Origin: an uncultured Bacteroidota bacterium
Lineage (GTDB): Bacteria > Bacteroidota > Bacteroidia > Bacteroidales > FEN-979
Reading direction: 5' to 3'
NCBI GenBank assembly: GCA_937900965.1
Contig: CALCGJ010000290.1
Coordinates: 1 to 43,959 of the forward strand
DNA length: 43,959 nucleotides
Shown here: positions 13,801 through 22,901 of the stretch, piece after piece
Layout of the letters: each line of letters starts with the position of its first letter
How positions within the stretch are numbered: position 1 is the first letter of the stretch
Translations under genes and position numbers: made by a program
Notes under the pieces: model-generated
What the model was told of the DNA's origin: nothing
The model's database searches: none
What the model saw: the letters and a program-made list of their open reading frames with translations, nothing else

Positions 13801-14347
13801 TTTTACACTGTACCTTCCTGAGAAATTAGATTCTGCAGGCGAGAAACCAAAACAAAAAGAACCTTTAGTTGCCTTTGAAGAGGATCAGGAGACAGATGCT
13901 CCTGATGAGAAAGAGGCCGCCCCTGAAGAGACAGAAAAACCTTCGTATGCAGAAAATAAATCCAACAAGGTATTTGAGAACAAAAAAATCCTGATTGTTG
14001 ATGATGACATGCGGAACGTTTTCGTTCTCACAAAAATACTGGAAGATAAGAAGGTCCAGATTATAGTGGGAAAAAATGGCCGGGAAGGGATTGATAAACT
14101 AAACCAGAACCCTGATACCGCTTTAGTCATTATGGATATCATGATGCCGGAGATGGATGGATATGAGGCAATGCGGGAGATCCGCAAGGATAAACGTTTT
14201 GTTAAACTTCCGATGATCGCACTAACGGCAAAAGCGATGAAGGGAGACCGTGAGAAATGTATCGAAGCAGGAGCTAATGATTACCTCTCTAAACCTGTCC
14301 AACCAGAAAAATTGGTTTCACTCCTCCGGGTCTGGATCCAGAAATAG
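10814..14347 (+). CDS. Membrane hybrid histidine kinase: TM-sensor-TM-HAMP repeats-GAF-coiled coil-HisKA-HATPase-REC
   Basis: SEFLANMSHELRTPLNSILALSELL; GGTGLGLTISRSL; ILIVDDDMRNVFVLTKIL...MDIMMPEMDGYEAM; repeated HAMP-like linkers. Confidence 0.93.
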   Translation: MWNRVEKTIHKYFPDFHWRTLKNLGIGKTMLLWFLAISLIPLASLSFINYLYYYQGLNILTKKSLFTTSQLRVNDLNNYFQQADNYLTFLKEDPEHIELLSRADHEMKASGISPSEFVSTAQYRTTATQLKHSFGKSWELEGLYNILMINLDGTIVFSLKNMGIAGQNLNEGILSNSHISKTFGKILRSSSTLFSDLEYFPSSNNVITGFLGCPISDPQGNKIGVLGIQITTERIDRIIQYSVGFGSTMKVYLVGLDLNLRSVGESGNSEVLLRQSEDNSKTRLWRSSKINSSISTPDGKPIIEEVSYYQNSQDLDVMGLFREIDYLQTLGTDWALVEEIGTYEAHAIGRELSTFAKISLVVTTIFVFIISLFVTSRFVTPIKSISAWAKQVALGELISKDIRVSEDEVGEMKHTFNRLVSSLQQYADVSQSIALGDYSKKVPIRSQEDILGKSMNEMVESFKGVVKQAKAIASGDYSTNVVPRSDQDTLGISLFNMTKKLRESSFEIKTQDWLKTGINELSLLSSGEQGIKDLSNAVLTFLAHYLDSQVGLLFVTGDKNELNLTASFACEPEVTTLTFGNGVIGQVAKEKKSLIFSTVSDTMPSVNIGPTIEKPSHFIIAPILFEGQILGVIQLGSFLPFDEVKQHFLEISLETIALAIHTARSRERVEQLLLKTQEQANELAEQKEELRQINEELEEQTKALRQSEENLQHQQEELRVINEELEERTKVLELQRDDIRKKNQALQLAQIEIKQKAEALEVASKYKSEFLANMSHELRTPLNSILALSELLALNKHKGMVKEDIEFANVINSSGKDLLELINDILDLSKVEAGKLEVDLEDLYFEDLEDYVRKTFSPLTNQRGITLESKIEKGIPERIETDPQRALQIIKNLLSNAIKFTEKGGVTFSIHRPDKDVIFTNPNLTPKNCIAFDVTDTGVGIPEDKVNLIFEAFQQADGTISRKFGGTGLGLTISRSLSWLLGGEINLKSTPGEGSTFTLYLPEKLDSAGEKPKQKEPLVAFEEDQETDAPDEKEAAPEETEKPSYAENKSNKVFENKKILIVDDDMRNVFVLTKILEDKKVQIIVGKNGREGIDKLNQNPDTALVIMDIMMPEMDGYEAMREIRKDKRFVKLPMIALTAKAMKGDREKCIEAGANDYLSKPVQPEKLVSLLRVWIQK

Positions 14348-15007
14348 GGATTCCGGCTTCTTGTGCTTGATCATCTTCCCATCAACAATAAAGACGATAG
14401 ATTCTGCGATGTTTGTTGAATAATCTCCGATACGCTCCATCTGAGTCAGTATGATGATCAACGCTGAGGCAACAACAATCACCTCCCGCTTTTGACCCAT
14501 CTCTTCCAGAATGTTATCGGTAATCTTCTTGCAAAGACTTTCAATAGCCGAAGCCTGAATAAAAATATCCCTGACAAACGTTGTGTTCCAGGTATTAAGG
14601 ATTGTTATTACGTCCTTTACAATTACATCTGTCATACGGATCAGCTCCTCCATCTCCAGCTCCTTCAGTATCTCAGGGTATTCAGAAATCGCCTCTACCC
14701 TGGATGCGATCCCTACTGCATGATCACCCATCCGTTCCAGGTCATTGTTCATCTTTAGCGATGACATGATCATCCTCAGATCGGTTGCAACAGGCTGCTG
14801 AAGCGCAAAGATGCGCTGACAGAGTTTGTCGATCTTCACATCAAGCTTATCAACTATTTTATCGTTGCTGATTACCTGGGAGGCAAGATCTGTATCGCAA
14901 GTCTGTAAAGCAAGCATGGTATTGTGAATCTGGTCTGCCACCAGGTTTCCCATTTTTAGAATCCGTTTTTTTAGCTTTTTCAGCTCCTGTTCAAAATGTC
15001 GTTCCAT
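14318..15007 (-). CDS. phoU: Phosphate signalling protein PhoU
   Basis: N-terminal HFEQELKKLKKRILKMGNLVADQ, ATDLRMIMSSLKMNNDLERMGDHAVGIA; adjacent to pstB. Confidence 0.95.
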   Translation of the reverse strand: MERHFEQELKKLKKRILKMGNLVADQIHNTMLALQTCDTDLASQVISNDKIVDKLDVKIDKLCQRIFALQQPVATDLRMIMSSLKMNNDLERMGDHAVGIASRVEAISEYPEILKELEMEELIRMTDVIVKDVITILNTWNTTFVRDIFIQASAIESLCKKITDNILEEMGQKREVIVVASALIIILTQMERIGDYSTNIAESIVFIVDGKMIKHKKPESLFLDPDPEE

Positions 15008-15028: not shown

Positions 15029-15787
15029 TTAACCAAAACGCCCGGTGATGTAATCTTCTGTCTGCTTCTTGTCAGGTGTTGTAAAGATTTTTTTTGTCTT
15101 TCCAAACTCTATCAATTCACCCAGATAAAAGAAAGCGGTAAGATCACTAACCCTGGCTGCTTGCTGCATGTTATGCGTAACGATTACTATGGTGAAATTC
15201 TTTTTTAGTTCAAAGATAAGCTCTTCTATTTTTGCGGTTGATATGGGGTCCAATGCACTGGCCGGCTCGTCCATCAGTATGATCTCCGGATTGACGGCAA
15301 GGGTACGGGCAATGCATAGCCTTTGTTGCTGACCTCCTGAAAGGCCTAACGCCGAATGGTTCAGCCTGTCTTTCACCTCATTCCAGATGGCAGCACGTTG
15401 CAACGAAGTTACCACAATCTCCTCCAGATCTTTTTTATTATTAATCCCATTGATCTTTGGTCCGTATGCGACATTTTCAAAGATTGATTTGGCAAAAGGG
15501 TTGGACTTCTGAAAAACCATTCCGATCTTCTTCCTGAGGTTTACAACATCTACCTTCTTGTCGTAGATATCAAGTCCGTCTATGAGTACCTTTCCTGATG
15601 TCTTAACATTTGGGATCAGGTCGTTCATTCGGTTCAGGGTTCTCAGAAATGTCGATTTTCCACATCCAGACGGGCCAATGAATGCCGTCACCTGGTTCTC
15701 CGGAATTTCAACGGAGACCGAATTGAGAGCCATTTTCTCCCCATAGTAGAGGGAGAGCGCTTCGGTGACGATTTTCGTGTCTTTCAT
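15029..15787 (-). CDS. pstB: Phosphate ABC transporter ATP-binding protein
   Basis: [60 protein letters not shown]. Confidence 0.97.
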
Positions 15788-15798
15788 TCTTTGCTTCT

Positions 15799-16701
15799 TT
15801 AGGCCTTCACTCTCCGGCGAATTCTTGCCCGGATAATGACGGCTATAAAATTCAGTAAAAATGTCAACATCAACAACACCAGTGTCGTAGCGTATTGGAT
15901 GGACATAGTTCCATCTACGTCGGCCGATTGTGTTGACATGATGTATATGTGGTATCCCAGGTTCATAAACTGATCACTCAGGGATGTGGGAAGTGTTGCC
16001 AGGTAGTAAGCAGCACCAGTGAAAAGAATAGGTGCTACCTCGCCGGCTCCCCGGCTCACTGCCAGTATCATTCCTGTCATGATACCCGATATTGACCCTG
16101 GGATGACAATCTTTTTGATCGTTTGCCACTTTGTAGCTCCCAGTGCCAGACTTGCTTCCCGGAGTTCGCGCGGAACGGTTCGGATCGCCTCCTCCACGGA
16201 AATTATAACCACGGGGAGGGTGAGCAATGACATGGTCAGGCTGGCCCATAAAATATTAGGCTGCGCCCACCTCAGTTCACCTCCCAGAAAAATGGAGTCC
16301 ATTTCGCCTCCTATAAACTTGATAAAGAATCCCAAACCGAACAGCCCGAAAATAATGGCAGGGACTGTTGCCAGTGTGCGAACGGCAAAACGAATGGTTT
16401 GGGCAATCACAGATTTCTCGCTGGCATATTCTGTCAGATAAATAGCGGTGATCGTACCGAAGGGAACGGCAGCAACAGACATGATGATCACCATCAGCGC
16501 AGTCCCGTATATTGCCGGAAAAATTCCCCCCTCTGTCATCCCATTTTCAGGGAAGGCTGTCAAAAACTCCCAGGTTATTTTATCCTTTGATCCAATGATG
16601 ACCACCACCAGGATAACCACGATGATCGCAATGATAGCAATGGCCGAAAAGGCCGATGCCCCCACCAATACTCCTCCGGTGATTTTTCTTCTCCGACTCA
16701 T
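15799..16701 (-). CDS. pstA: Phosphate ABC transporter permease
   Basis: BPD permease motif [48 protein letters not shown]. Confidence 0.96.
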
Positions 16702-17798
16702 GATGTTTTTCCCTGGAATCGTTTCATCAGGCGTCCTTTCACGTAAAATTCGGCAAGTGCATTCAGGCTGAAGGTGAAGACGAACAGCAGCGAACCGATG
16801 AGGAACAACACGCCGTAGTGCGTATCACCGAAAACCACCTCGGCCATCTCTGCGCCAATTGTTGCCGCAAGCGTTCGTACCGACTCGAAAGGATTGGCTG
16901 AGATCAGAGCTGCATTACCTGTTGCCATAAGAGCAATCATGGTTTCGCCGAACACCCGTCCTATTCCCAGCAGGATTGCTGCGAAGATTCCCGGTGTTGC
17001 TGCAGGTAGAGTAACAAAAAGAGCTGTCTGCCATTTCGTTGCGCCCAAAGCGAGACTAGCCTCTTTGTAGGAGCCCGGGATGGCAGTCAGGGCATCCTCT
17101 GTAATCGTGAAGATGATCGGGATAGCTGCCAAGCCCATTGCAATGCCCCCAACGAAAGCATTCAGTCGTGTTTCATAACCAAAGAGGTCCTGTAATACAG
17201 TTGCCATCACCATCAGTGCAAAAAATCCAACCACAACCGACGGGAACCCAGCCAGCAACTCTATAGCCGGCTTAATCCATTCACGAAGCCAGGTTGGAGC
17301 AAATGCGGCCGAAAATAAAGCAGCCAGGATGGCAATCGGTGCTGCAAACAGGATTGAAATAATGGTGATCTTTATCGTACCAACAAAAAGCGGGATCAAG
17401 CCGTATCGTGGATTGGATGAGACCGGATACCATTCATCGCCAAGCAGATCCTTTACTGTAACCCGCTCATCTTCTGAAGCTGTTCCTTCCGTTCCGTAAT
17501 CCCGGTTCCCCATCAGGGAGCTATCCAGTTCAATCCCGTAAACCTCCGGCTGAAGGTTCTCCTCTTCCGGTTCAGCGAACACACCGTACTGCTCAGGTAC
17601 AAGCTCTTCGCTGCTGGTGACAGATGACTTTTCAGGTTGTTGAAAAACGGGGAGAGTCTCACGAAAGACGAAGAAAAAGATCAGGACAATGATGGTAATG
17701 GAGAGAAAAGCAACACCGGAAATGATCCGCTGAGAAAGGTATTCAGATAGCCTGAACCTCTTTCTCATCGTCTCTTTGGTAAATCCTTTCTGATTCAT
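16698..17798 (-). CDS. pstC: Phosphate ABC transporter permease with an extended acidic loop after TM1
   Basis: [51 protein letters not shown]; overlaps the pstA start by 4 nt. Confidence 0.95.
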   Translation of the reverse strand: MNQKGFTKETMRKRFRLSEYLSQRIISGVAFLSITIIVLIFFFVFRETLPVFQQPEKSSVTSSEELVPEQYGVFAEPEEENLQPEVYGIELDSSLMGNRDYGTEGTASEDERVTVKDLLGDEWYPVSSNPRYGLIPLFVGTIKITIISILFAAPIAILAALFSAAFAPTWLREWIKPAIELLAGFPSVVVGFFALMVMATVLQDLFGYETRLNAFVGGIAMGLAAIPIIFTITEDALTAIPGSYKEASLALGATKWQTALFVTLPAATPGIFAAILLGIGRVFGETMIALMATGNAALISANPFESVRTLAATIGAEMAEVVFGDTHYGVLFLIGSLLFVFTFSLNALAEFYVKGRLMKRFQGKTS

Positions 17799-17800
17799 TC

Positions 17801-18640
17801 CTATCTGACCGGGAAGTACCCGACCTCAGTTACCATTTGTTGGCCTGCAGGGGAAAGAATCCAGTCTATGAACTCCTTGGTCTCGCCGGTAGGACGAATT
17901 GCAGTGTACATGTAAAGGTACCTGCTGATCGGATAGAGCCCTTTCTTGATATTCTCTGCATTGGCCTCATATCCGGGACTATCAGCATCTTTTTTAACCT
18001 TGCAGATCTTGATGCCTTCGGCATATGCTGCACCACCATATCCGATCCCATTCGGATCTTTCAACACCGCATTAACAACGGCAGCAGTCCCAGGAAGCGT
18101 CTGGCAACTTGGTGCATAATCTCCTTTCACCACCTCCTCCTGGAAGAAGACATAGGTGCCGGAGCTGTTCTCGCGACCATAGAGTTTGATAGGTGCATCC
18201 TTGCCGCCTACCTGTTTCCAGTTGGTTACTCTGCCGGAAAAAATGTCAGCCAGTTGCTGAACTGAAAGCGCATTTACACCATTTGCCTTGTTGAGGTAAA
18301 CGGTGATCCCGTCTTTGGCACAAGGGATCTCAATTCCATTGGTATTGTATTTCTGTTTGATCTTTTCGATTTCCGATTTTTTCATCGGACGGCTGGCGTT
18401 ACAGATATCGGTAGCTCCATTGATCAAGGCAGCGATTCCGGTTCCGGATCCTCCTCCCGTTACCTGAATGATGATGTCGGGATGACTTTTCATGAATACT
18501 TCAGCCCACTTCTGGGATAAGATCACCATGGTGTCGGATCCTTTTACGGTTACTTTTTTCTGGGCAGGGGCAAATGCCACCCCAGCTATGGCAATCATTG
18601 CGATGGCCAGAATTTTGATAATTTTTCTTGAGTTTTTCAT
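17801..18640 (-). CDS. pstS: Phosphate-binding protein PstS family
   Basis: VTVKGSDTMVILSQKWAEVFMK...ITVQVTGGGSGTGIAALINGATDICNASRPMK-type motifs; next to pstC. Confidence 0.95.
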   Translation of the reverse strand: MKNSRKIIKILAIAMIAIAGVAFAPAQKKVTVKGSDTMVILSQKWAEVFMKSHPDIIIQVTGGGSGTGIAALINGATDICNASRPMKKSEIEKIKQKYNTNGIEIPCAKDGITVYLNKANGVNALSVQQLADIFSGRVTNWKQVGGKDAPIKLYGRENSSGTYVFFQEEVVKGDYAPSCQTLPGTAAVVNAVLKDPNGIGYGGAAYAEGIKICKVKKDADSPGYEANAENIKKGLYPISRYLYMYTAIRPTGETKEFIDWILSPAGQQMVTEVGYFPVR

Positions 18641-18705: not shown

Positions 18706-20223
18706 TTAAAATTTGGCCTGTAAACGCAGGGTAAATATATTTTGAGGGAATACCCTGTTATAGTCGTTGTAAACTGTCATGTCGTTTACATCATATTTTT
18801 TTACCAGGTTAGAGTTGCCTGATGCATCCACACCCACTTTTTCATTGATTGGCATCTCGTAGGCGACCTGGATACGCAGATTTTTTGTAAAGAAATAGTT
18901 CCACGCAAAGGTCAACGTATGAAATGTAATGTCAGAGCTTCCGCTCTTTAACGAATTATCTGTAATATTCTCAGTCGTCTCATTGAACAGAATTACAGGA
19001 CTGGTTCCGTCAATAATAGTGGTGTTTGTGTTGATATCTGAAGAGTTGGCATCATAACCAACTACACCAATCTGTTTGCCTGAAAGTTTGGTATTCGGAT
19101 CGTAGAAATCCCAGCGGAAAGCGAACTGATTCCGCTTGCCTATATTCTTTATCAGGTAAACATAACCACCCATGAAATTCCGCCTGATAGTTGGTTTAAT
19201 TTCATTGGTATTGGTTATCATGGAGGTCAGGGTAAGGGTATCATTGTCAAGGCTGAATTGAGAATCCTCAAAGGAAAAGGTGCCAACAGCGCCTGAATAA
19301 CTATTGATCCCCATCAGGTATTCTGCCCGTATCTCCAACCCACCCAATACATCCATATACAGCTGCATCTCCCCACCAAACCAGTTACGGGTCACACTCT
19401 CTCCAACCCCTACGTTCTTATCCAGGGTATAATCACTATTCAGAAGGGTTGTGGAATTAGATTTCTGCCAGCCGAAGTAGCCGCTTGCCCCAATGTTAAG
19501 CTTACCAAAGCCTCCCAGTTTAAAACCATATGTTACACGGGTCATAAGATCCTTGAAGGGATCGAAATCGACAGCCCAGAGATTGACATTGGCTCCATAT
19601 ATATCATCAATGACCTTAAACGTGTTTCCATTCAGAACGGCCAGTTGCACTTTTAATGGAAATTCTGGTGGAGTTATTTCCAGTTTTACACCAATGCCTC
19701 TTTCTCCGGGATATAACTGCCTGATCACACGGGACCTCTCCGGTACTTCCCGTTTACTGGAGGAATATTCCACCGCGAAATTAGGTCTGTTAAACTGTCC
19801 GGCCCATAGAGAAAAAGTCTTGATCCATGGATCATGTAATTCTACATAAGCGTCCCTTAACACTGTTCCCGTTACAGTGAAATTCGGCTGCAACACAAAA
19901 ATTACCTCTTCAATGGGTTGGTATTTTATTTTGATCCGTGCCCGGCGAACGAGGAACGTATTATTCGGATAGATGGCAGGGTTCTCATAGTGGAGCCATT
20001 GGGCCTGAATGTATCCGGATAACTTTATTTTAGTAATTTTCTCCAGGTTGTTCTCAGCTGTGGCTAACCGCTCTTCAAATCCTTCAACCTTATCGTGGAA
20101 GTTGATTTCTTCTCTCTTCAAAGAGTCGTTTACCTCTTGTGAATAAATTTTTTCTGTTGATAAAAAGGTGGCAAGAGATACCATGACCACCAAAATCAGT
20201 TTGCTTTGTAATTTCTTAATCAT
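18706..20223 (-). CDS. Phosphate-selective porin, OprO/OprP-like
   Basis: Coiled-coil N-terminus then LSGYIQAQWLHYENPAI...VRRARIKIKYQPIEEVIFVLQPNFTVTGTVLRDAYVELHDPWIKTFSLWAGQFNRPNFAVEYSSSKREVPERSRVIRQLYPGERGIGV; start trimmed to MIKKLQSK. Confidence 0.9.
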   Translation of the reverse strand: MIKKLQSKLILVVMVSLATFLSTEKIYSQEVNDSLKREEINFHDKVEGFEERLATAENNLEKITKIKLSGYIQAQWLHYENPAIYPNNTFLVRRARIKIKYQPIEEVIFVLQPNFTVTGTVLRDAYVELHDPWIKTFSLWAGQFNRPNFAVEYSSSKREVPERSRVIRQLYPGERGIGVKLEITPPEFPLKVQLAVLNGNTFKVIDDIYGANVNLWAVDFDPFKDLMTRVTYGFKLGGFGKLNIGASGYFGWQKSNSTTLLNSDYTLDKNVGVGESVTRNWFGGEMQLYMDVLGGLEIRAEYLMGINSYSGAVGTFSFEDSQFSLDNDTLTLTSMITNTNEIKPTIRRNFMGGYVYLIKNIGKRNQFAFRWDFYDPNTKLSGKQIGVVGYDANSSDINTNTTIIDGTSPVILFNETTENITDNSLKSGSSDITFHTLTFAWNYFFTKNLRIQVAYEMPINEKVGVDASGNSNLVKKYDVNDMTVYNDYNRVFPQNIFTLRLQAKF

Positions 20224-20245: not shown

Positions 20246-20253
20246 CAAAAATA
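20246..20253 (-). promoter_or_regulatory. -7 box TATTTTTG for the porin-pst operon
   Basis: TAnnTTTG match 22 nt upstream of the trimmed start. Confidence 0.6.
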
Positions 20254-20273: not shown

Positions 20274-20312
20274 AGTTACGGAGATATTACCTTAATATTA
20301 AATAATTGTTAA
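20274..20312 (-). promoter_or_regulatory. Candidate Pho-box array: TTAACA-N5-TTAATA-N5-GTAATA-N5-GTAACT
   Basis: Four 6-bp direct repeats with exact 11-bp period, ending at the -33 region of the -7 box at 20246-20253. Confidence 0.65.
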
Positions 20313-20508: not shown

Positions 20509-20952
20509 ATGAAGATAATTAGAACGATTGATATCCTGTTGGTTGAAGATAACCCAAATGATGCAGAGCTCACCCTTCTTGCTCTGAATTCCAACAATCT
20601 GGCAAATAATATTCAGGTTATCAGAGATGGTGAAGAGGCCCTGGATTTTCTTTTCAGACGGGGTGAGTTTGCCGGCAGAGAAAGATTCGATTTGCCCCGT
20701 CTGATTCTTCTTGACCTGAAATTACCTAAAGTAAGTGGTATTGAGGTACTTGAGCAGATCAAATCCGATGATCTTTTCAAGCTTGTCCCGGTTGTGGTAT
20801 TAACCACTTCAAAGGAGGAACGTGACATAGTTCAGAGTTATCACCTGGGAGTAAATAGTTATATTGTGAAACCAGTTGACTATCAGATATTTATTAAAAT
20901 AATTACTGAAATAAGTCAATACTGGCTTTCCGTTAATGAGTTACCCAATTAA
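20509..20952 (+). CDS. Stand-alone response regulator (Rcp1-like REC)
   Basis: DILLVEDNPNDAELTLLAL...PRLILLDLKLPKVSGIEVLEQIK...VVLTTSKEERDI..YHLGVNSYIVKPVDY. Confidence 0.92.
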   Translation: MKIIRTIDILLVEDNPNDAELTLLALNSNNLANNIQVIRDGEEALDFLFRRGEFAGRERFDLPRLILLDLKLPKVSGIEVLEQIKSDDLFKLVPVVVLTTSKEERDIVQSYHLGVNSYIVKPVDYQIFIKIITEISQYWLSVNELPN

Positions 20953-20963
20953 TTGGCAATGTA

Positions 20964-22901
20964 ATGCAAGCACCTATAAAAATATTGTTACTTGAAGACT
21001 TTCCGCCTGATGTAGAACTTATCGAACGGGAACTAATAAAAGCCGGTATTAAATTCAACAGTAAGCATGTCGATAACAAGGCCGATTTCATTGAGGCAAT
21101 TCAGAAGTTCCTCCCCGATCTTATCATTTCTGATTACAGTCTTCCACAATACGACGGATTATCAGCTATCCGGGATCTTCGGGCACTTTCTCCCGGAACT
21201 CCGATCATCATCGTCACGGGCTCATTAGATGAAGAGACAGCTGCCGACACGATTAAATCAGGAGCCTGGGATTATGTAGTGAAAGAACGGCTATACCGGC
21301 TACCTTCAGCCGTAAACCAGGCTTTAAAACTCAAACAAGAGATTGAAAGCAAAATCTCAGTCGAAAAAGCCCTCCAGCAAACCGAAGATGAATATGAGAC
21401 CCTTCGGAACAATATACCACTTGCAATCTATCGGGCCACAGTTGAAGGTAAGTTGCTGTATGCAAATCCATCCTTCTGGTCGATGTTCGGATATGAAAGC
21501 ATTGAAGAGGTGATGATAAAACCCATGATCGAACATTACCTCCATCCTGAAGACCGCGGCAGGTTGATGGGAAAACTCGTAGAAGAGAAAGTCGTCAGGG
21601 ATTTTGAGATTGCGTTTTTACGCAAAGATGGCTCAACGTTCTGGGGCTCTGTATATGGCAGAGCTCTGTTTAATGAACAAGGAGACCATATATTCCAGGA
21701 TGGCATCATCATGGATGTCTCGGAGCTGAAACAGACTCACAAGGAATTAATCTCAGCCAAGGAGAGAGCCGAAGAATCGGACAATCTCAAGACAGCGTTC
21801 CTCGCGAACATGTCCCACGAAATTCGCACTCCCATGAACGCCATCCTTGGATTTTCCGAATTACTGCTTGATCCATATTACTCAAAGGAGGATGTCACAT
21901 GGTTTGTAAGTCTGATCCATAAAAACGGCAAGTCCCTGATTACTATAATCAACGACATCATTGAAGTGGCTAAAATAGAAGCCGGGATCTTACAGATTGA
22001 AAAGTCTTATTGCTCATTGGACACAATCTTCAGAGAACTCTACGAAACGTTCCGGGGAGATATGAGTAAAAAAGGACTTACCGAAATAGATTTCTCATAT
22101 ACTGCACCGGAAGAGCCCGGACTCAGGATATATACCGATCCCAACAGGTTGAAGCAAATCCTGAGGAACCTTCTGAGCAATGCCTTTAAATTCACGGAGC
22201 ACGGCCGTATTGAATTTGGCGCTCAGGTAGTTGGCGCTAATATAACGTTCTTTGTTAAGGATTCCGGCCTGGGAATTCCCGAAGATAAATTTGAGATAAT
22301 CTTTGACCGTTTTCGCCAGGTTGACGACTCACATACACGGGAATTTGGAGGGACCGGCATCGGCCTCACCATAGCTAAAAACCTGGTAGAGCGACTGGAT
22401 GGCACTATCTGGGTAGAATCCGATTTATATAAAGGGTCTGAGTTTTATTTCAAACTCCCTTTCCAACCGGAAACACAGGGCGAGAGCGAAATAAAAGACA
22501 TTCCAACTTCCGGGAAGCCTGCTGTTCAGGAAAATTGGGCTACGAAAACTATTCTTATTGTAGAGGATGTGGAGTCAAACTATATGTACCTTGAAACCGT
22601 ACTGAAGAAGACAAAAGCAAATATTCTCTGGGCAGACAGCGGGCAAAAGGCTCTTGATTATATCAGAACCACCCCTGAAATCGACATTGTACTTATGGAC
22701 ATCCAGCTGCCTGATCTCAACGGACTGGACGCCACCCGGCAGATTAAAGAGATGCGGCCTGAACTTACCGTGATAGCCCAGACCGCATTTGCGTTATCTA
22801 CAGATGAGGAGATGGTATACAACGCAGGCTGTGATGGTTACCTCACAAAACCGATCACAAAGAAAAACCTCATGTCCTGTCTTTCAACCTATTTACATTA
22901 A
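20964..22901 (+). CDS. Hybrid histidine kinase: REC-PAS-HisKA-HATPase-REC
   Basis: [89 protein letters not shown]-terminal REC. Confidence 0.93.
   Translation: MQAPIKILLLEDFPPDVELIERELIKAGIKFNSKHVDNKADFIEAIQKFLPDLIISDYSLPQYDGLSAIRDLRALSPGTPIIIVTGSLDEETAADTIKSGAWDYVVKERLYRLPSAVNQALKLKQEIESKISVEKALQQTEDEYETLRNNIPLAIYRATVEGKLLYANPSFWSMFGYESIEEVMIKPMIEHYLHPEDRGRLMGKLVEEKVVRDFEIAFLRKDGSTFWGSVYGRALFNEQGDHIFQDGIIMDVSELKQTHKELISAKERAEESDNLKTAFLANMSHEIRTPMNAILGFSELLLDPYYSKEDVTWFVSLIHKNGKSLITIINDIIEVAKIEAGILQIEKSYCSLDTIFRELYETFRGDMSKKGLTEIDFSYTAPEEPGLRIYTDPNRLKQILRNLLSNAFKFTEHGRIEFGAQVVGANITFFVKDSGLGIPEDKFEIIFDRFRQVDDSHTREFGGTGIGLTIAKNLVERLDGTIWVESDLYKGSEFYFKLPFQPETQGESEIKDIPTSGKPAVQENWATKTILIVEDVESNYMYLETVLKKTKANILWADSGQKALDYIRTTPEIDIVLMDIQLPDLNGLDATRQIKEMRPELTVIAQTAFALSTDEEMVYNAGCDGYLTKPITKKNLMSCLSTYLH

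Follow-up and report, generated by a model that had tools for sequence, protein, structure and literature searches.

The window, as we call the whole analysed stretch of 43,959 nucleotides from an uncultured Bacteroidota bacterium, carries on its minus strand four direct repeats at 11-bp spacing which, on sequence comparison, are very probably a Pho box, that is, a head-to-tail operator for a PhoB-type regulator of the OmpR family that would control an operon of the type porin-pstSCAB-phoU. The array and its promoter are composed of the following elements:

20307..20312, minus strand: repeat 1, TTAACA followed by ATTAT; TTAACAATTAT is nearly invariant across family loci
20296..20301, minus strand: repeat 2, TTAATA; TTAA in 39-40 of 40 loci, with C or T next
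20285..20290, minus strand: repeat 3, GTAATA; TAA in all 40 loci, 34 of which have G as the first base
20274..20279, minus strand: repeat 4, GTAACT, taking the -33 element position; (T/G)TAAC conserved, 20 bp from its end to TAnnTTTG
20246..20253, minus strand: Bacteroidota -7 element TATTTTTG (TAnnTTTG), whose distance to the start of the array is constant in nearly all 40 loci

Read directly, minus-strand positions 20312-20274 give TTAACA ATTAT TTAATA TTAAG GTAATA TCTCC GTAACT, with hexamers starting at 20312, 20301, 20290 and 20279 and a period of exactly 11 bp. A preliminary description of this DNA had proposed four phased hexamers at 20274-20312 and a -7 box at 20246-20253, and both are found on the minus strand at these coordinates; 20 bp separate the last hexamer from TATTTTTG (20253-20246), and the porin ATG lies at 20223. 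The half-site consensus is KTAAYA, with a family-specific left half TTAACAATTATTTAA, and not the CTGTCAT core of the E. coli type. As expected of a Pho box, the array contains at least two head-to-tail units at an 11-bp period and, judging from the sequence, occupies the upstream core-promoter position at a fixed helical phase. Immediately 5' of the array, a terminator-like hairpin, GCTGTC-N12-GACAGC, is followed by CTCTTTTTT (20346-20314, minus strand). No minus-strand gene is evident ahead of it, the place is taken in relatives by other genes or terminators, and a terminator scan with a loop limit of 8 nt does not list it.

The promoter precedes a porin gene followed by pstS, pstC, pstA, pstB and phoU, the last five all scoring above curated cut-offs:

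18706..20223, minus strand: first gene of the operon, outer-membrane porin of the O/P family, 505 aa (PF07396, 27.8 bits, cut-off 20.9)
17801..18640, minus strand: pstS, phosphate-binding protein (TIGR02136, 258.9 bits, cut-off 206.6)
16698..17798, minus strand: pstC, permease (TIGR02138, 235.4 bits, cut-off 196.45)
15799..16701, minus strand: pstA, permease (TIGR00974, 243.8 bits, cut-off 193.45)
15029..15787, minus strand: pstB, ATPase (TIGR00972, 417.9 bits, cut-off 343.2)
14318..15007, minus strand: phoU (TIGR02135, 184.8 bits, cut-off 130.25)

Divergent from this operon (20509-22901, plus strand) are the genes for a single-domain response regulator and then a PAS hybrid histidine kinase, neither of which is a candidate for binding the array because both lack a DNA-binding domain.

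Four KTAAY units at 11-bp phase occur once in the window against an expectation of 2.9e-5 from 5-mer frequency, an optimistic value since the motif was picked after the array had been seen. With up to three mismatches, 0.27 sites are expected in shuffled sequence, and the array, in two registers, is the sole site of the window. The intergenic region that harbors it is AT-rich (32% GC); its period-11 self-similarity score is equalled by 20 of 1000 shuffles, and a period-16 match outscores period 11 within it. We therefore rejected intergenic self-similarity as a proof of the array, and this weakness makes conservation across species the decisive evidence.

Such conservation is extensive. The porin is present in 54 of 120 related genomes, mostly of the window's own family, and upstream DNA was read at 48 loci, of which 40 were tabulated (the own locus, family relatives and one locus from the same order, G081). 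Across these 40 loci the hexamer cores show little or no variation (37-40 of 40 at most core positions) and the spacers differ, and nearly every locus has TAnnTTTG 59 nt from the start of the array. The 11-bp TTAA-type array is kept at this position in nearly all family genomes with a porin ortholog, so that conservation ahead of orthologous porin-pst operons, which the preliminary description had predicted for a genuine operator, is observed over the 40 loci. One base pair has been lost in a sister species (L003), and in distant porin relatives (L041-L043, L045-L049) the arrays are weaker or unrecognisable in the stretch examined. One genome (G019) carries copies of an identical pst promoter at three contig ends (C13, C36, C51), probably through a repeat in the assembly or a duplication of the operon.

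The array is also found beyond the pst operon. When the window's own genome (3.79 Mb) was searched with up to three mismatches to the family consensus, two sites were retrieved and none with the reversed pattern. The second (C121:7117-7154) lies between the divergent genes for a PiT-type phosphate transporter (PF01384) and a small CarboxypepD_reg secreted protein, with a -7-like box, TACTTTTA, at the same distance as in the pst promoter. A looser pattern of three repeats and three mismatches was discarded, with 11 forward/reverse matches in this genome against 10 in the control; it is uninformative beyond one mismatch. Over 43 genomes of the family, a pattern combining three repeats with TAnnTTTG yielded, at one mismatch or fewer, about 100 matches, compared with 5 for the reversed pattern, and an exact search with a free gap (4-34 bp) about 107 matches, compared with 0, a count into which a four-repeat site enters twice, once per register. 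The 56 non-pst family sites that were read precede genes for a plcP-like metallophosphoesterase (PF12850; 13 sites), the small CarboxypepD_reg protein (13), a TonB receptor (7), a glycosyltransferase (3), phoB (2), pstS (2) or a LuxR-type regulator (2); of the remainder, 4 form a separate class of TTTTAAT-type arrays and 10 lack any obvious connection. The PlcP metallophosphoesterase of Flavobacterium is induced by phosphate depletion (PMC8115612). At the two plcP-like loci examined, PiT and PhoU-like genes, named from their translations, are close by on the same strand, directly after the plcP-like gene in G028 and behind an intervening convergent glycosyltransferase gene in G032. The array thus recurs before genes of phosphate acquisition (pst, plcP-like/pit, pstS) and, in two relatives, before the gene of the regulator, phoB. 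Equal frequency upstream of unrelated genes, which the preliminary description had regarded as fatal to its proposal, is not what these searches returned: the full motif greatly outnumbers its reversed counterpart, and a substantial proportion of its other occurrences precede phosphate genes.

Several of these family sites have peculiar settings. At one locus (L104, 14880-16135; G032:C70), phoB and a small CarboxypepD_reg gene point away from each other, each behind a phased array of its own. The LuxR-type response regulator genes that two genomes of the family carry behind a KTAAY array (L117, 408-1061; L126, 463-1116) possibly encode a downstream regulator in the phosphate response. The TTTTAAT-type 11-bp arrays, also with an in-phase TAnnTTTG, precede coiled-coil membrane-protein genes (L122, G039:C120:62655; L135; L137; L138) and are probably operators of another OmpR-family regulator. 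As these genes have no evident phosphate role, 11-bp arrays alone are not proof of a Pho regulator.

At the scale of the phylum, the fixed-gap pattern had 26 matches in 248 genomes, 25 of these matches lying outside the own genome, and none in the control; several precede porin, pstS or TonB-receptor genes, as named from translations and not from a family search. With the gap left free, 393 genomes gave 55 matches against 5 in the control. The distance between array and box was 10 bp in 25, 21 bp in 15 and 32 bp in 4, together 44 of the 54 matches outside the own genome, when chance would place 3 of 31 gaps in phase; because some rows represent the same site in overlapping registers, the computed p-value is too small, but the quantisation is plain. 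The placement of the last hexamer at -33, as given in the preliminary description, holds in the window's family; in other parts of the phylum the array is often one 11-bp step nearer to the -7 box. Among 40 pstS upstream regions from more than 20 families, 10 have strong four-repeat arrays at period 11 and 30 are without a strong array; none was detected at periods 7-10 or 12-15 or in reversed sequence. Conservation before pst genes therefore extends beyond the family, with a signal essentially restricted to period 11. We lean slightly towards a grammar shared across the phylum, in which tandem KTAAYA-like units at 11 bp stand at quantised distances of 10, 21 or 32 bp from the -7 box, the array slides by whole turns, and the half-site co-evolves with the recognition helix of PhoB (VHIRR with KTAAYA, VNITR with GAAACA-TTCANA).

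The same architecture is visible in Bacteroides. At period 11, 62 of 78 pstC promoters of the Bacteroidaceae type pass a five-repeat threshold, including those of two B. fragilis genomes; one passes at period 12 and none at other periods. The PstC of G356 is identical to that of Bacteroides ihuae, from which the window can be assigned to the same order as Bacteroides, Bacteroidales. Both B. fragilis genomes have six repeats, GTAACA-N5-GTAACA-N5-GAAACA-N5-TTCAAA-N5-TTCACA-N5-TTAATA, with a TTTCTTTG box 10 bp beyond the array (counted from the TTAAT core) and the pstC start no more than ~40 bp from the array end. A published study, whose main text gives no motif, found that a 512-bp fragment of the pst promoter is shifted by recombinant B. 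fragilis PhoB and that pstSCAB transcripts fall more than 100-fold once phoB is deleted (PMC3547664). We assume that this fragment contains the six-repeat array.

As for the protein that would bind the array, the own genome encodes five response regulators with a Trans_reg_C domain. A PhoB-like protein is encoded at G000:C269, its gene being followed by one for a histidine kinase. Two PhoB models are its best NCBIfam matches, both below the curated cut-off of a PhoB equivalog (NF053854, 207.4 vs 270; TIGR02154, 204.8 vs 296.2), and among PDB structures the DNA-binding domain most resembles that of E. coli PhoB (DRTIDVHIRRIR vs DRTVDVHIRRLR). The protein is ~39% identical to Bacteroides PhoB, and the recognition helix reads VHIRRIR in the former and VNITRLR in the latter, a difference that would fit the drift of the half-sites in Bacteroides, as a correlation drawn from two clades. 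In G032 and G036, the genes for relatives of this protein (67-68% identical) are preceded by an array; no convincing array was seen in the region upstream of the own phoB-like gene.

The most serious competing explanation is that the array serves a different OmpR-family regulator, for instance an ArcA-like one or an envelope or redox regulator, which likewise recognises direct repeats at 11 bp, with the phosphate operon as one of several targets. The five regulators of the own genome leave room for it, the PhoP motif of Riemerella anatipestifer is ArcA-like by its authors' account and was connected with aerotolerance (PMC9603813), and the TTTTAAT-type arrays occur in the same family. Nevertheless, the KTAAYA class is repeatedly found at pst, plcP-like/pit and phoB genes, the promoter region bound by PhoB in B. 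fragilis has the same architecture, and no DNA-binding domain is present in the single-domain regulator or the hybrid kinase encoded divergently, all of which make this alternative improbable.

Still less credit can be given to the idea that the repeats are simply AT-rich promoter or UP-element sequence with no specific binding protein. The low GC content of the intergenic region and its marginally unusual self-similarity would agree with it, but it is contradicted by the conservation of hexamer cores over many species with variable spacers, by a signal confined to period 11 and lost or strongly reduced in reversed controls, and by the quantised gap to the -7 box. We consider an action of the conserved block in RNA, as a leader or attenuator, the least probable of all: it is suggested by the hairpin and T-run just upstream on the same strand (20346-20314), but the array is upstream of the -7 box and would thus be outside the transcript, the hairpin is not common to relatives, and an Rfam search returned sub-threshold chance matches only, with no family fitting the block. 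The Pho-box reading of the preliminary description is supported by the conservation, the fixed phase to the -7 box and the regulon-like distribution of the array.

The PhoP boxes of B. subtilis, with the consensus TT(A/C/T)ACA-N5, share with our array a near-identical TTAACA-like core and the 11-bp phase, but belong to another phylum and promoter type, whereas the repeats described here stand in a fixed position relative to the Bacteroidota -7 box. The E. coli Pho box consists of 11-nt direct repeat units with the core CTGTCAT (PMC4415409). It resembles the array in its head-to-tail 11-bp repeats that replace the upstream core-promoter element before pst, and in the DNA-binding domain of the candidate regulator, to which E. 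coli PhoB is the nearest PDB match; it differs in its core, KTAAYA being found here, as well as in the presence here of at least four repeats and of a TAnnTTTG -7 element at 20-bp spacing. Within the phylum, the B. fragilis pstC promoter likewise has 11-bp repeats in phase with a -7-like box, in a region that PhoB binds and for which it is required (PMC3547664), but its half-sites drift to GAAACA/TTCAAA and its PhoB is of another clade. The Riemerella motif, obtained by DAP-seq for an autoregulated PhoP/PhoB-type regulator, has the core TTTAACA, but was described as ArcA-like and linked to virulence and aerotolerance, not as a Pho box phased to a -7 element (PMC9603813). Beyond these two papers, we did not find a Bacteroidota Pho box in the searchable literature, which mostly excludes subscription papers and preprints. 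Provisionally, the KTAAYA half-site, the constant helical phase between the array and the Bacteroidota -7 element and, in the window's family, the last repeat at -33 appear to be new, while the half-site TTTAACA was already known from Riemerella PhoP (PMC9603813).

By analogy, PhoB would bind this promoter in the window's organism. Under phosphate limitation, a phosphorylated regulator, most likely the PhoB-like protein at C269, would bind the four 11-bp repeats along a single helix face. The subunit bound last would sit at the position of the -33 element and recruit the sigma-RNA polymerase to TATTTTTG, switching on porin-pstSCAB-phoU. We infer the binding of this protein, the phosphate control and the contact of the last subunit with sigma.

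The PhoB regulons of Bacteroidota matter for the use of phosphorus in the gut, soil and sea. A motif with a built-in rule of distance to the -7 box produces very few false matches (0-5 in controls versus about 50-110), and with it the Pho regulon of many Bacteroidota genomes would become predictable from sequence; the array also links the work on B. fragilis PhoB with the ArcA-like PhoP motif of Riemerella.
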